From positions 124,001 to 188,000 of the forward strand of contig JABJJW010000023.1 in the NCBI GenBank assembly GCA_018660685.1: 64,000 bases of DNA, in the 5' to 3' direction. Made by a program: the position numbers and the translations under genes. This document shows positions 56,601 to 62,243 of this stretch, one piece after another (position 1 is the first letter of the stretch; the number at the start of each line of letters is the position of its first letter). Under the pieces are notes generated by a model. The model saw nothing but the letters and a program-made list of their open reading frames with translations, ran no database searches and had not been told where the DNA came from. This DNA is from Flavobacteriales bacterium. GTDB lineage: Bacteria > Bacteroidota > Bacteroidia > Flavobacteriales_G > Salibacteraceae.

Positions 56601-57018
56601 GAGTCAAATGGCCGCCCAACAGGCTGCTATTCGTCAGCAATTGAGGCAACTTTCCGAATCATTAAGCGAAGAGAAAGGCGGGAAGCAAGGTGGTAACGCA
56701 CTACAAGAAATTCAAGAGCTCATGGAACAGACCGAAGAAGATATTCTTTACGGGAAGATTAGTGCTCAAACGATGCAACGACAGCAGGACATTTTGACCA
56801 AATTGCTCGAATCAGAGAAGGCAGATCGAGAGCGAGAACTAGACAAAGAGCGCCAAAGCAAAAGCTCTACTATTTCATATGATGTTCCTGAAGAAATATG
56901 GGAACTATACTTGCAGAATAAAGAACGGGAAGTTGAATTGTACAAAACTGTTCCTCCCAATTTGAAACCTTTTTATCGAAAAAGAGTAAATCGCTACTTT
57001 AGTACTTTCTCCGATTGA
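53677..57018 (+). CDS. DUF4175 family membrane-anchored coiled-coil protein
   Basis: Two to three N-terminal TMs, long acidic coiled coil (EELNEELEELQEELEELEEMNKELEE), Gly/Met-rich KKPGGMPGMPGMSKE segment; start moved to MEIKENLQRYSRKL because 53651 carries TATCTTTG. Confidence 0.8.
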   Translation: MEIKENLQRYSRKLQVKQMITGGIISSSLLVGVWIALSLMEYELRLGISERTILFFSFVATTLSVLGYLLFIPFLRWLRLLPSRSNHDLALEIGRDIPQVEDQLLNFLALENERQNNALVHASLEQKSLRFVDFDFSQTVNLRSSLQILRVAIIPMLLACIILLWDSSLLMESGSRLVQFNKSFIPPAPFTFNLENQLLQVAEGNDLEIVVSAEGKAVPENAFVLMNDAEFRMKRLSTGSFSFLFKNVRKDLDFQLRGASVYSAAHSITVLPKPRLVETEVYADYPAYTGLKNESFTNRSRLEIPEGTELNFQFLTSKSKTLQIAEDGMSMPIEIEDNIGVYKSRMTEGQNLIVITNNTSLSDTATIAIAIIPDQFPAIKIYEHVDSSNLSFRYFNGECSDDYGISKATFNVSMTTSGFTTSQIIALPIADRAQQTLSHLWNVDSLITTPGQKIEYFFEVWDNDGINGAKSTRSAKWTYTVPSLDDMKTQAESQSDESKKALETNMDELTDMQEEIDALKKDLLQKKKPEWQDRERLEDLLKQQKEMIKNLEEKSTLQRTEQEKLSRFEQMDEDLMQKQEQIQKMFEELFDDEFKEKYEEWNELLEELSKEEMLKTLEQMEMDHEKLEKQLDRTLELFKQLEFEKKLDESIQKVDELIKEQEELIEETDNKQNSEDELSEKQEELNEELEELQEELEELEEMNKELEEPNELPESAEEKAEEASQKMEEAADDLSGGKRKKGKESQEGAKENLEEMQESLSQFQEQMAQDQQAENLDDMRQLLENIVDLSHAQEDVMENIKGTKLSDPKYIQLAKTQKDIVDDVKTVEDSLLALSKRVPQLDRVINDEITSVKHNMDKALSNLTNQPPNQERRYKEMAVQRQQLAMTSLNNLALLFDEIIRDMQSDLSEKAFGKGACKNPGNKPGGKPSAGDMKKMQKNLNKQLQKLKEAMEKGQNPNGKKPGGMPGMPGMSKELSQMAAQQAAIRQQLRQLSESLSEEKGGKQGGNALQEIQELMEQTEEDILYGKISAQTMQRQQDILTKLLESEKADRERELDKERQSKSSTISYDVPEEIWELYLQNKEREVELYKTVPPNLKPFYRKRVNRYFSTFSD

Positions 57019-57020
57019 TC

Positions 57021-57449
57021 ATGTTCAGCAACCATTTCGAACTCTCATTTCCCGCAGATATTCAGAATCTTTCTCTGGTGGAGAACGCCATTGAAGGTCT
57101 TGCCGAACAAGGAACAATTCCAGATACAGTATTCGGAAACGTCATGGTGGCATGTACAGAAGCCACGCTCAATGCAATTCATCATGGTTCATCTGATGAC
57201 GCAAGCAAATCTGTCAAGTTGAGAGTAGAAATTCAAGACGATGAACTCAATATTTACGTTCATGATGATGGTGACGGTTTTGATCATGAAAACCTTCCTG
57301 ACCCGACCCAACCTGAAAACATCGAAAAGGCCAGCGGCCGCGGAATATTCATCATCAGAAATCTTGCTGATGAGTTGGAGTTTCTTGAAAATGGGTCCAG
57401 CATCAAAATGACATTCAGCTTAAACGTTCCTGTTGTAGCAGAGGCGTAA
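57021..57449 (+). CDS. Anti-sigma regulatory factor-like GHKL ATP-binding protein (RsbW/SpoIIAB-like)
   Basis: VACTEATLNAIHHGS, VHDDGDGFD, SGRGIFIIRNLADEL. Confidence 0.88.
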   Translation: MFSNHFELSFPADIQNLSLVENAIEGLAEQGTIPDTVFGNVMVACTEATLNAIHHGSSDDASKSVKLRVEIQDDELNIYVHDDGDGFDHENLPDPTQPENIEKASGRGIFIIRNLADELEFLENGSSIKMTFSLNVPVVAEA

Positions 57450-57454
57450 CTTTG
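57447..57454 (+). promoter_or_regulatory. -7 element TAACTTTG upstream of ybeY
   Basis: Exact TAnnTTTG overlapping the stop codon of the upstream gene, 9 nt before ATG at 57464. Confidence 0.5.
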
Positions 57455-57463
57455 CAGGCCGAA

Positions 57464-57916
57464 ATGGAGAGGTCTGATTTTCACATATTTCCTGAAGTAG
57501 AAACAAACGCCAACTTGGAGTTGCTATCTGAGTTAGGGTTTCACGCGTATCAGCATATATCTACTGATTTCAACCAGAATCCGAAGACAATAAACGTAAT
57601 TCTCCTTCCCGATTCCGACCATACTGATTTGAATATCAAACATTTAAACCACCACTACTCTACTGACGTTCTAACCTTCGACCTGAGCGATGAAGTTGGG
57701 ATACTCGAGGGAGAAATCTATCTGAATGTGGACATGATCAAGACGAACGCTACGGAGTTTGGTGAATCATTCTTCGACGAACTTCTTCGAATCATAATCC
57801 ATGGTCTCCTCCACCTTGTTGGATTAAATGACCATACGTCAGACGAAAAGAAGGAAATGAGCGAGAAAGAAGATTTCTACATTAACCAGGCTAAAGTTTC
57901 ATGTGAAACATTATGA
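57464..57916 (+). CDS. ybeY: Endoribonuclease YbeY (rRNA maturation factor)
   Basis: STDVLTFDLSDEVGILEGEIYLNVDMIK, HGLLHLVGLNDHTSDEKKEM zinc motif; start at 57464 ATG preferred over TTG 57452. Confidence 0.9.
   Translation: MERSDFHIFPEVETNANLELLSELGFHAYQHISTDFNQNPKTINVILLPDSDHTDLNIKHLNHHYSTDVLTFDLSDEVGILEGEIYLNVDMIKTNATEFGESFFDELLRIIIHGLLHLVGLNDHTSDEKKEMSEKEDFYINQAKVSCETL
57895..57910. promoter_or_regulatory. parS: parS-like palindrome AGTTTCATGTGAAACA
   Basis: Core GTTTCATGTGAAAC vs general parS core GTTTCACGTGAAAC (one mismatch); lies in the last codons of ybeY. Confidence 0.55.
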
Positions 57917-59799
57917 CGCAGGAATTTGACATAATCGTTGTAGGTGGTGGTCACGCGGGTTGTGAAGCCGCAGTCGCCGCTGCCAAGCTCGGCTCAAAAA
58001 CGCTATTGGTTACCATGGATATGACCAAATTCGCTCAGATGTCATGCAACCCAGCTATGGGTGGTGTAGCTAAGGGACAAATCGTCCGTGAAATTGATGC
58101 TTTGGGAGGATACTCAGGGCTTGTGAGTGACTACAGTGCTATTCAGTTCAGAATGCTCAATAGATCCAAGGGACCTGCCATGTGGAGTCCAAGGACTCAA
58201 AACGACCGCGCATTATTCACCACGAAATGGAGAGAAATGCTGGAGGATACTCCGAATCTATACTTCTGGCAAGATTCCGTTACAGGCATTCTACTAGAAT
58301 CCAATATCGCTGTCGGTGTTTCGACCTCACTCGGAATCAATCTTAAGGCGAAGTCGGTGATTCTAACCGCAGGAACATTCATGAACGGAGTCATTCATGT
58401 AGGAGAAAAGCAGCTAGGCGGAGGCCGAATGGGAGAGAAGTCTTCACAAGGGATCACTGAACAATTGGTCTCATTAGGCTTCAATAGTGGTCGAATGAAA
58501 ACGGGAACTCCACCGCGTATTGACGGGCGCTCGCTCGACTATGATAAAATGGAGGCCCAAGTGGGAGACTCGGATGCTAGATCCTTCTCATTTCTAAATC
58601 GATATCCAATTAAAAAGCAAAGGGATTGTCACATCACCTATACCAACAACACGGTTCATGAAATAATCAATGACAGCATATCACAGTCTCCGCTCTATAA
58701 TGGCCAAATACAGTCGATAGGTCCTCGTTATTGCCCTTCTGTAGAGGATAAGGTGCAGCGGTTTGCAGATAAAGACAGGCATCAAATTTTCGTTGAGCCG
58801 GAAGGTTGGAAAACGCACGAAGTTTATGTCAATGGCTTCTCGACCTCACTCCCACTGGAGGTTCAACAAAAAGCCATTAAGCACATTCCTGGCTTTGAAA
58901 ATGCGGTCTTATTTAGACCTGGTTACGCTATTGAATACGATTTCTTCCCTCCTACCCAGCTCAATCTGTCACTTGAAACCAAAAACATTCAGAACCTATT
59001 CTTTGCTGGACAGATTAATGGAACAACTGGATATGAAGAAGCCGCTGCTCAAGGATTGATGGCTGGTATTAACGCACATCGCAAAAACACTTCGCAAGAA
59101 GCCTTAGTTCTCACTCGTGAACAAGCATATATCGGTGTCCTCATTGACGACCTCATAACCAAAGGAACTGACGAGCCGTATCGCATGTTTACTTCTCGCG
59201 CCGAATATCGGATCACACTACGTCAGGATAGCGCAGACATTCGACTGACTCCGATAGCTCATGAGCTTGGATTAGTCAGCGACGAAAGAATGGACCGGTT
59301 GAAAGAAAAGGAGAAGCAGAAGACCTCACTGCTGCGGGCTGTCAAAAAAAGCAGTATCACACCAACTGAGGCTAACGACTATTTGATTGATCAAAGCTCA
59401 AAACCAATTTCTCAGAGTGTCAAAATTGAAAGCTTGCTTCTACGGCCAAACGTAAAACTGGAAGATCTCATTCCGCTTTCGAGAGAGTTTTCCAAAACCA
59501 ATGCTTCTGGGCACTATCAAGAAGAAGTGATTGAAGCCACTGAAGTACTCATCAAATATGCCGGCTATATCAAACGAGAAAGGGAAATGGCCCAGAAAAT
59601 GTTGAATTTAGACAAGGTCAAAATTCCAACCCCTTTCAATTTTGAAATACACCAGAGCATTTCAACAGAATCTCGAGAAAAACTTCAGCAACATCAGCCA
59701 GTGAATCTTGGACAAGCAAGTAGAATTCCTGGAGTTAAACCGGTGGACATTTCTGTACTCATGATCGCTTTGGAAAAGCATGTTTCACATGAAACATAG
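57913..59799 (+). CDS. mnmG: tRNA uridine-5-carboxymethylaminomethyl(34) synthesis enzyme MnmG (GidA)
   Basis: FDIIVVGGGHAGCEAAVAAAKLGSKTLLVT, SCNPAMGGVAKGQIVREIDALGG, RMKTGTPPRIDGRSLDY, GQINGTTGYEEAAAQGLMAGINA, RAEYRITLRQDSADIRLT. Confidence 0.97.
   Translation: MTQEFDIIVVGGGHAGCEAAVAAAKLGSKTLLVTMDMTKFAQMSCNPAMGGVAKGQIVREIDALGGYSGLVSDYSAIQFRMLNRSKGPAMWSPRTQNDRALFTTKWREMLEDTPNLYFWQDSVTGILLESNIAVGVSTSLGINLKAKSVILTAGTFMNGVIHVGEKQLGGGRMGEKSSQGITEQLVSLGFNSGRMKTGTPPRIDGRSLDYDKMEAQVGDSDARSFSFLNRYPIKKQRDCHITYTNNTVHEIINDSISQSPLYNGQIQSIGPRYCPSVEDKVQRFADKDRHQIFVEPEGWKTHEVYVNGFSTSLPLEVQQKAIKHIPGFENAVLFRPGYAIEYDFFPPTQLNLSLETKNIQNLFFAGQINGTTGYEEAAAQGLMAGINAHRKNTSQEALVLTREQAYIGVLIDDLITKGTDEPYRMFTSRAEYRITLRQDSADIRLTPIAHELGLVSDERMDRLKEKEKQKTSLLRAVKKSSITPTEANDYLIDQSSKPISQSVKIESLLLRPNVKLEDLIPLSREFSKTNASGHYQEEVIEATEVLIKYAGYIKREREMAQKMLNLDKVKIPTPFNFEIHQSISTESREKLQQHQPVNLGQASRIPGVKPVDISVLMIALEKHVSHET
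59781..59796. promoter_or_regulatory. parS: parS-like palindrome TGTTTCACATGAAACA
   Basis: 15/16 match to TGTTTCACGTGAAACA; lies in the last codons of mnmG; core is the exact reverse complement of the 57896..57909 core. Confidence 0.6.
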
Positions 59800-59951
59800 A
59801 AATAAGCCTCTATTCACATCCCCCATCAAAATGGATGCGCGATATTCACACCGTCTCGATCTCTTATTACAAGAGAAGTCCATAACAGGCTGTTAATCAA
59901 GTGTTTGTGCCATTTCATATCATTTTCGCCAAATTCATCGTTAATCCCGCA

Positions 59952-62243
59952 GTGAAGTACTTCAGCGCCCTGCTTTTTCTTACCCTATCAATTTCAGGTT
60001 TGGCCCAGCATCAAGTTGGACAATGGAGATCTCATCTCCCAATGGAAAATTTTAAATGGGTTGGCGAGCTTTCTCAAAAACTGGTATACGCAAATGAGTA
60101 CGGTCTGCTAGTCTATGACAAAGAGGATCAGTCTTTAACTGCCCTCACCAAAATCAATCATCTAACAAGCACCGGAATCACCTCCTTTATTTCTTCCTTC
60201 GAGCATGACTTGTGCATCATCGGGTATTCAGATGGTAACATTGACATTTTAGAATCAGGTGTAACGATAATCAACCAGCCCGCTGTTGCTACTAGCAACA
60301 TAATTGGCGACAAGGCCATCAACGATATTGAATTTGACGGGGATCTGGCCTTGCTGTTTACAGGATTTGGTATCCTGCAGCTCGATTTAAATTCTTACAA
60401 TATTCTCGAAAGGGGAGAGGTCGTAATCGGAGGCAACAATGTGATTCCAACAGAAGGTCTTGTAAACAGCTCCAACATTTACTTTACCTCCTCGATTGGG
60501 ACCTTCAGAACGCGTAAAGAGAGCTTTTACACGAATCCCACGTTTGAGGAGTTAGACATCAATCATCCCGATGGCGTCATCACGCAATTCTTTGAACTCG
60601 GTGATGACCTATTTGTTGTTTCGGTCAACGACAGCTTCATGCTCGATTACATCTACAAGCTCGAAGACACTGCTTTTACCCGTACAACTTGGGTTGAAAA
60701 TCGAGAGATTCGCTCAATTACGGTCGAAGATGATTTCATCATAGCCTCACTTTTCGACGCGGTTGAACAACACTCATTTGATCTTGAATATCAAACTCAC
60801 ATCTTCACGTATGGAGATGGCGCAGATGGCATTAAAGGGCAGATGGCGATTAAATTGAGAGATGGGAATATCACCATTGCCGATGCGCAATATGGCGGCG
60901 TCATCACCACCTTCGAAAATCAATACAATTCCCAACTTCTGGCTATTAGCTCTCCATCTTCAGCGCAAATCAGCAGGATCTCTAACATCGATGACCAAAT
61001 TATTGCGCTGCCGGGCGGTAATGAATTCACCTTTAACAGTCCACTTATTCATTCCTACGACGAATTAGCGTGGAATAGTATTGATCTTAATATTCTTCTG
61101 AGCGTTGGGGTTCGGAACCCTGTTCAACTGGTTCAAAATGATGAATTTCGATATCTCGCACTTGACGGGGCTGGGCTATTGCAACTTAATCACGACAATG
61201 CGCCTATTCAACTCTTCAATGAGTTCAATAGCTCGATTGAAGACCGGTCCGACGTTGATGCCGACTATTATGGTATAACGGATGCGGGAGTTGATTCGAG
61301 GGGCAACATTTGGATTTTGAACAGCTTGTCAAGTCATCCGCTAAAAGCGCTTCATAACGATGGCACATGGACGTTAATTGACTTCTCAGATTTTCCATCG
61401 CCTATCACCAAAGATCTTGTCGTTCTAGAATCTGATTTGATTGTTTTCTCACTAAAAAATGAAGGTCTAGTTATATATGACCCAGCCGGTACCCCACGAA
61501 ACACATCTGATGATGATTTCAGGATAATTAATAGTTCACCAGCTAAAGGCAGCCTCCCCAGCGACAACGTTCTCTCATTTGTTGAAGACCGCGATGGCGA
61601 GTTATGGATAGGAACTGATGCGGGAATCGGCATCATATTTAATCCTGAAAGTGTTTTCTCTACAGGTTTCGAAGGGGTACAAAAGATCATTGTAAGCCAA
61701 GATGGATACAATGGCTACCTATTCGAATCTGACGCCGTACAAAGCATTGCAATTGATGGCGCCAATCGTAAATGGATTGGGGCAAAGGGCGCAGGTCTTT
61801 TCTTAATATCTGAAGATGGTCAGGAGCAACTTGGAAGGTATACTCAAGAAGATAGCCCGCTGCTCAGCAACAACATCCAGAATATCGCCGTTCAACCAAG
61901 CTCGGGTGAAGTCTTTTTAGCTACAGAAAAAGGGCTTCAGGCTTATCGTTCGGACGCAACAGAGCCTGCTGATTTTGCCGAAGAATTAGAAGTGTTTCCA
62001 AACCCCGTTTCTAGTGGATACGATGGTTTGATTTCTATTACTGGCATGGGGTCTGAAAGTAGGGTACGAATCACTGATGCATCCGGAAACCTTATGTATG
62101 AGACCTTGAGTAATGGTGGTTCCGCTACTTGGACTGGACAAGATAACCAGGGAATTCGGGTACCAAGTGGGGTGTATCTAGTCTTTGCTTCTGCGCCCGA
62201 CGGAAGCAACGGTCAAGTATCCAAAATAATGTTCAATCATTGA
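59952..62243 (+). CDS. porZ: PorZ-like T9SS protein: two-component-regulator-type propellers plus T9SS type A C-terminal domain
   Basis: After signal peptide (V/M)KYFSALLFLTLSISGLAQ the PorZ-like start HQVGQWRSHLPMENFKWVGELSQKLVYANEYGLLVYD; C-terminal VFPNPVSSGYDGLISITGMGSESRVRITDASGNLMYETLSNGG; ORF could alternatively start at GTG 59901. Confidence 0.8.
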   Translation: MKYFSALLFLTLSISGLAQHQVGQWRSHLPMENFKWVGELSQKLVYANEYGLLVYDKEDQSLTALTKINHLTSTGITSFISSFEHDLCIIGYSDGNIDILESGVTIINQPAVATSNIIGDKAINDIEFDGDLALLFTGFGILQLDLNSYNILERGEVVIGGNNVIPTEGLVNSSNIYFTSSIGTFRTRKESFYTNPTFEELDINHPDGVITQFFELGDDLFVVSVNDSFMLDYIYKLEDTAFTRTTWVENREIRSITVEDDFIIASLFDAVEQHSFDLEYQTHIFTYGDGADGIKGQMAIKLRDGNITIADAQYGGVITTFENQYNSQLLAISSPSSAQISRISNIDDQIIALPGGNEFTFNSPLIHSYDELAWNSIDLNILLSVGVRNPVQLVQNDEFRYLALDGAGLLQLNHDNAPIQLFNEFNSSIEDRSDVDADYYGITDAGVDSRGNIWILNSLSSHPLKALHNDGTWTLIDFSDFPSPITKDLVVLESDLIVFSLKNEGLVIYDPAGTPRNTSDDDFRIINSSPAKGSLPSDNVLSFVEDRDGELWIGTDAGIGIIFNPESVFSTGFEGVQKIIVSQDGYNGYLFESDAVQSIAIDGANRKWIGAKGAGLFLISEDGQEQLGRYTQEDSPLLSNNIQNIAVQPSSGEVFLATEKGLQAYRSDATEPADFAEELEVFPNPVSSGYDGLISITGMGSESRVRITDASGNLMYETLSNGGSATWTGQDNQGIRVPSGVYLVFASAPDGSNGQVSKIMFNH

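Follow-up and report, generated by a model that had tools for sequence, protein, structure and literature searches.

A stretch of 64,000 nucleotides from a Flavobacteriales bacterium (the window) carries two short palindromes, one at each end of mnmG (gidA), and the question that this locus raises is whether they are chromosomal parS sites or whether they merely follow from the coding, or serve the expression, of the genes that they touch.

Two palindromes at the ends of mnmG

Both palindromes had been pointed out from the letters of the window alone (the sequence-only reading), and both 14-mers were found exactly where that reading had placed them:

57452 to 57916, plus strand: ybeY (TIGR00043), with site 1 inside its last codons in this species only by frame
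57896 to 57909, plus strand: putative parS site 1, GTTTCATGTGAAAC (TG centre), overlapping the 3' end of ybeY and ending 3 bp 5' of the mnmG start codon
57913 to 59799, plus strand: mnmG/gidA (TIGR00136, 831 bits), bracketed by both sites
59782 to 59795, plus strand: putative parS site 2, GTTTCACATGAAAC (CA centre), in the V-S-H-E-T codons at the 3' end of mnmG

As also claimed, the 14-mer cores are exact reverse complements of each other, each being one base off the canonical GTTTCACGTGAAAC with the palindrome ends intact, and each site combines one canonical half (GTTTCAC) with one altered half (GTTTCAT). In this genome, site 1 is read as the YbeY tail VSCETL-stop and site 2 as the MnmG tail VSHET-stop. 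As for the neighbors, an RsbW-like anti-sigma factor scoring under curated cut-offs is encoded 5' of ybeY (57015-57449) and the type IX secretion (T9SS) protein PorZ (NF052228) 3' of mnmG (59901-62243).

The whole draft assembly (2.58 Mb, 28 contigs) was searched with the pattern GTTTCAYRTGAAAC, which covers the canonical GTTTCACGTGAAAC too and which both sites match with zero mismatches. The only exact matches were sites 1 and 2, located 1.9 kb apart, and not a single canonical GTTTCACGTGAAAC was found in these 2.58 Mb. By our own arithmetic, ~0.04 exact matches would be expected by chance per genome, in line with the claim that a chance occurrence is very improbable; copy number is low and the motif is not scattered. 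Matches with one mismatch were as frequent in the whole assembly as those to the reversed control pattern (3 vs 3), showing that further parS sites in this genome are not credible. Judged by sequence, sites 1 and 2 would almost certainly be the only two parS sites of this chromosome.

The parS site is TGTTNCACGTGAAACA in B. subtilis and GTTTCACGTGAAAC in M. smegmatis (table in PMC7022226), so that the sites described here represent the same 14-bp palindrome bar one central base, with a TG/CA centre instead of CG. Their setting is also comparable, with few copies, a position near the skew origin (in relatives) and a single ParA-ParB operon, although there are here two copies only, both touching mnmG, and parAB is not adjacent. 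Asymmetric sites are known from Streptomyces coelicolor (tGTTTCACCTGAAACa; PMC7022226) and half-degenerate ones, with a conserved GTGAAA half, from Caulobacter (PMC5815017), so that a working site with one altered half would not be surprising: these also have one perfect and one changed half-site, but they differ at another central base pair and belong to other phyla, whereas the copies described here face opposite ways. Binding sites of Noc (NBS), which are ATTTCCCGGGAAAT-type palindromes recognized by a protein with Q173/R201 (PMC7383237), were ruled out, since positions 1 and 6 of our sites carry the bases of parS and since the ParB of this genome keeps R173/G201.

Constraint on nucleotides and conservation in relatives

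Considering that both sites are in frame in this genome, as VSCET and VSHET, they could be conserved V-S-x-E-T protein C-termini from whose codons the palindromes merely follow. In an alignment of MnmG from 12 genomes of the genus, 320 residues are invariant, and a single codon is kept in only 5 of 305 invariant columns when Met and Trp are left out. Four of these five columns are GTT TCA CAT GAA, which are the codons lying wholly within site 2, while the base that follows the 14-mer, at the third position of the next codon, varies in the genus: codon invariance ends exactly at the boundary of the 14-mer. At site 1, the ybeY stop falls at -1, 0, +11 or +21 with respect to the site, and the same DNA, depending on the species, is non-coding or is translated as FM-stop or as VSCET, while the site itself is constant. 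Site 2 likewise survives in one congener (G010) whose mnmG stops 3 bp before it, and sites are found between genes in relatives. These codon and frame tests rule out the explanation by VSxET tails, to which we give practically no chance. Selection on sites 1 and 2 acts on nucleotides and the amino acids are a by-product, which settles in favor of DNA the choice between nucleotide- and amino-acid-level conservation that the sequence-only reading had raised. Its proposal that the sites are tolerated as V-S-x-E-T C-termini holds only in part for this genome and does not extend to congeners in which ybeY ends before or inside the site or is in another frame, nor to G010. In the genus, MnmG is without its usual HLGR-stop ending and its frame runs through site 2 (59782-59799 in the window); in relatives, the TAG stop of mnmG often shares its G with parS.

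Among 60 relatives, the exact pattern gave 68 sites compared to 6 for the reversed control. The variant was present in all 12 sampled congeners, with both copies in 11 of them, the remaining one (G001) being a fragmented assembly with only site 2 on the contig fetched. Along the direction of mnmG, the first copy has the CATGTG centre and the second CACATG in these congeners, with a spacing of ~1,880-1,886 bp where both are on one contig. The sister genus g4 (G015) shows the same mirror pair, and its ParB falls inside the same well supported clade (100/100); the suggestion of a lineage-specific CACATG/CATGTG centre is thus borne out in this clade. Other genera of the family carry GTTTCACGTGAAAC or GTTYCACGTGRAAC, mostly directly 5' of the mnmG start and at its stop codon. 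Most other genomes of the family have a canonical or GTTCC-type pair at both mnmG ends. Several relatives that seemed to be without sites in a first scan carry the GTTCC form.

Association with mnmG, the replication origin and ParB

At 80 named Bacteroidota mnmG loci, 89 parS-like palindromes were found in the 50.4 kb beside the mnmG ends compared to 15 in the 946 kb farther off, corresponding to a ~110-fold enrichment. At least one site was detected at 52 of these loci and none within 250 bp at the other 28, so that the linkage to mnmG is frequent, not universal. These sites share with ours the gene context and often the presence of one site per mnmG end, but their centre is CG in 88 of 89 cases and they are usually located at gene ends or between them, not within a coding frame. 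When 396 genomes of the phylum were scanned separately, 25 matched the TG/CA-centre form (10 for the reversed control), with the match beside mnmG in 19 of these 25 (own genome included). On this sequence evidence, the TG/CA variant is a rare and real form of parS that has arisen in several lineages. The parS pair is of a known kind, and what is new is the centre variant and the strong association with mnmG: no description of an mnmG-parS link was found in the literature searched, which did not include the Livny 2007 survey and does not establish priority, and a search of the literature for the variant 12-mers together with ParB returned nothing.

The position of the replication origin was assessed from strand-corrected third-position GC skew. 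In the complete relative G013 (single contig of 4.12 Mb), all samples between position 1 and 1.858 Mb have a negative skew and all those between 1.858 and 3.83 Mb a positive one, with the parS pair at 1.851-1.853 Mb and dnaA at position 25. In G023 (5.10 Mb), where mnmG is located at 1.661 Mb and dnaA at position 49, the skew flips at ~1.67-1.68 Mb. The minus-to-plus flip is thus within ~20 kb of mnmG in both complete genomes, and it is found roughly there, within ~20-65 kb of the sites, in three congeners (G003, G006 and G009), a genus in which GC skew is weak; the origin-proximal location put forward by the sequence-only reading is therefore supported in relatives. No clear flip was seen at the sites of G015, and the window's own contig, which ends ~4.4 kb past site 2, has a weakly negative skew throughout and no flip. 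As for the expected landmarks, dnaA is 1.7-1.9 Mb from both mnmG and the GC-skew origin in G013 and G023, and no cluster of DnaA boxes that could mark oriC was found near mnmG. In G013, dnaA is near the plus-to-minus switch, i.e. on the terminus side. For gut bacteria including Bacteroidota, it has been reported that parS clusters mark the origin and that dnaA need not do so (PMC10197239).

A single ParB scored over the cut-off in the whole genome (195 bits; TIGR00180). It contains the ParB_N and HTH_ParB domains and closely matches ParB and Noc structures that have been solved. Its gene directly follows parA, forming one ParA-ParB operon on contig 4, so that the idea of a parAB operon near the sites did not hold, neither here nor in G013, where 1.05 Mb separate parB from the parS pair at mnmG. 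This ParB keeps R173 and G201, described as the key specificity residues (PMC7383237). As for condensins, which were searched with TIGR02168 and SMC_N, no SMC was over the TIGR02168 cut-off in the whole genome, and the SMC_N matches over the cut-off were frames of 578 and 381 aa, lengths that would suit RecN and RecF. The result is consistent with a report that two gut Bacteroidota lack known condensins (PMC10197239).

Since the sites abut the start and the stop of mnmG, they could also be operators or RNA hairpins that control mnmG expression rather than ParB sites. Against this, their consensus is the parS consensus, sites lie on either or on only one side of mnmG and often as tandem copies, the locus coincides with the skew origin in relatives, and a perfect palindrome without a loop would make a poor terminator. 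We consider such a role highly improbable. Very probably, on the other hand, a ParABS segregation system uses these palindromes as its chromosomal parS, considering the sequence match, the uniqueness in the genome, the nucleotide constraint, the phylum-wide placement at mnmG, the single ParB/ParA operon and the origin proximity in relatives.

ParB proteins that have been studied bind the palindrome as dimers, form CTP clamps that slide along DNA, and their complexes are moved by ParA. By analogy with these proteins, the ParB encoded on the other contig would bind each palindrome as a symmetric dimer whose two monomers each occupy one half-site, and would then form a closed, CTP-bound clamp that slides onto the flanking kilobases, and ParA would then move the origin region apart. 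A likely chromosomal centromere would thereby be identified in a little-studied phylum, linked across much of the Bacteroidota to a single housekeeping gene, mnmG; in the complete genomes examined, the parS site is a better marker of the origin than dnaA.

The changed centre and the mirror orientation

The mirror-image arrangement, to which the sequence-only reading had drawn attention, is fixed in this clade, but the variant follows no such rule elsewhere: it occurs as mirror pairs in G134, G196 and G248 and as same-direction tandem copies in G241, G431 and G419, and both orientations are seen upstream and downstream of mnmG in other lineages. These tandems show that mirror orientation is no general rule. 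The ancestor probably had GTTYCACGTGRAAC at either end of mnmG, and in the ancestor of the clade both central CG steps would have turned into the asymmetric TG/CA form, which was then held.

Why the centre changed may be explained in several ways. CpG decay or restriction avoidance of CACGTG was ruled out, since CACGTG counts are near expectation in the genus (22 vs 18.0 expected and 14 vs 15.8 expected). Alternatively, ParB and parS may have co-evolved, ParB now preferring a half-site that ends in T on one side. This would fit with the well supported grouping of the clade's ParB, with its His at the position of Caulobacter Q162, which has been described as a parS-contacting Gln conserved among ParB and Noc proteins (PMC7383237), with the failure of general CpG loss as an explanation, and with the fact that no CG centre was seen in the clade in spite of saturation at synonymous sites. 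However, the main specificity residues R173 and G201 are unchanged, that same His occurs in G016 alongside a canonical CG centre, and the unrelated G241, G431, G419 and G134, in which only TG/CA sites were detected at mnmG, keep Gln. Q162H is thus inconsistent across lineages as the cause of the centre change, and a shift in ParB specificity seems unlikely overall. We find it very unlikely that the asymmetric centres and the mirror orientation are functional, with the canonical half toward mnmG and the changed half outward; if true, this asymmetry would, unlike a symmetric site, make the loading of ParB or the release of the clamp directional or tune its rate. Since a symmetric ParB dimer should not tell the two orientations apart, the most likely reading of the mirror orientation is that of a frozen accident.

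Whatever its origin, the variant provides a natural series of parS sites with a changed centre beside an ordinary ParB, with which one can test how stringent ParB is about the central bases of its site. In the unrelated genus of G134, the mirror TG/CA pair is only 154 bp apart and lies directly 3' of mnmG, with comparable matches in G196 and G248.
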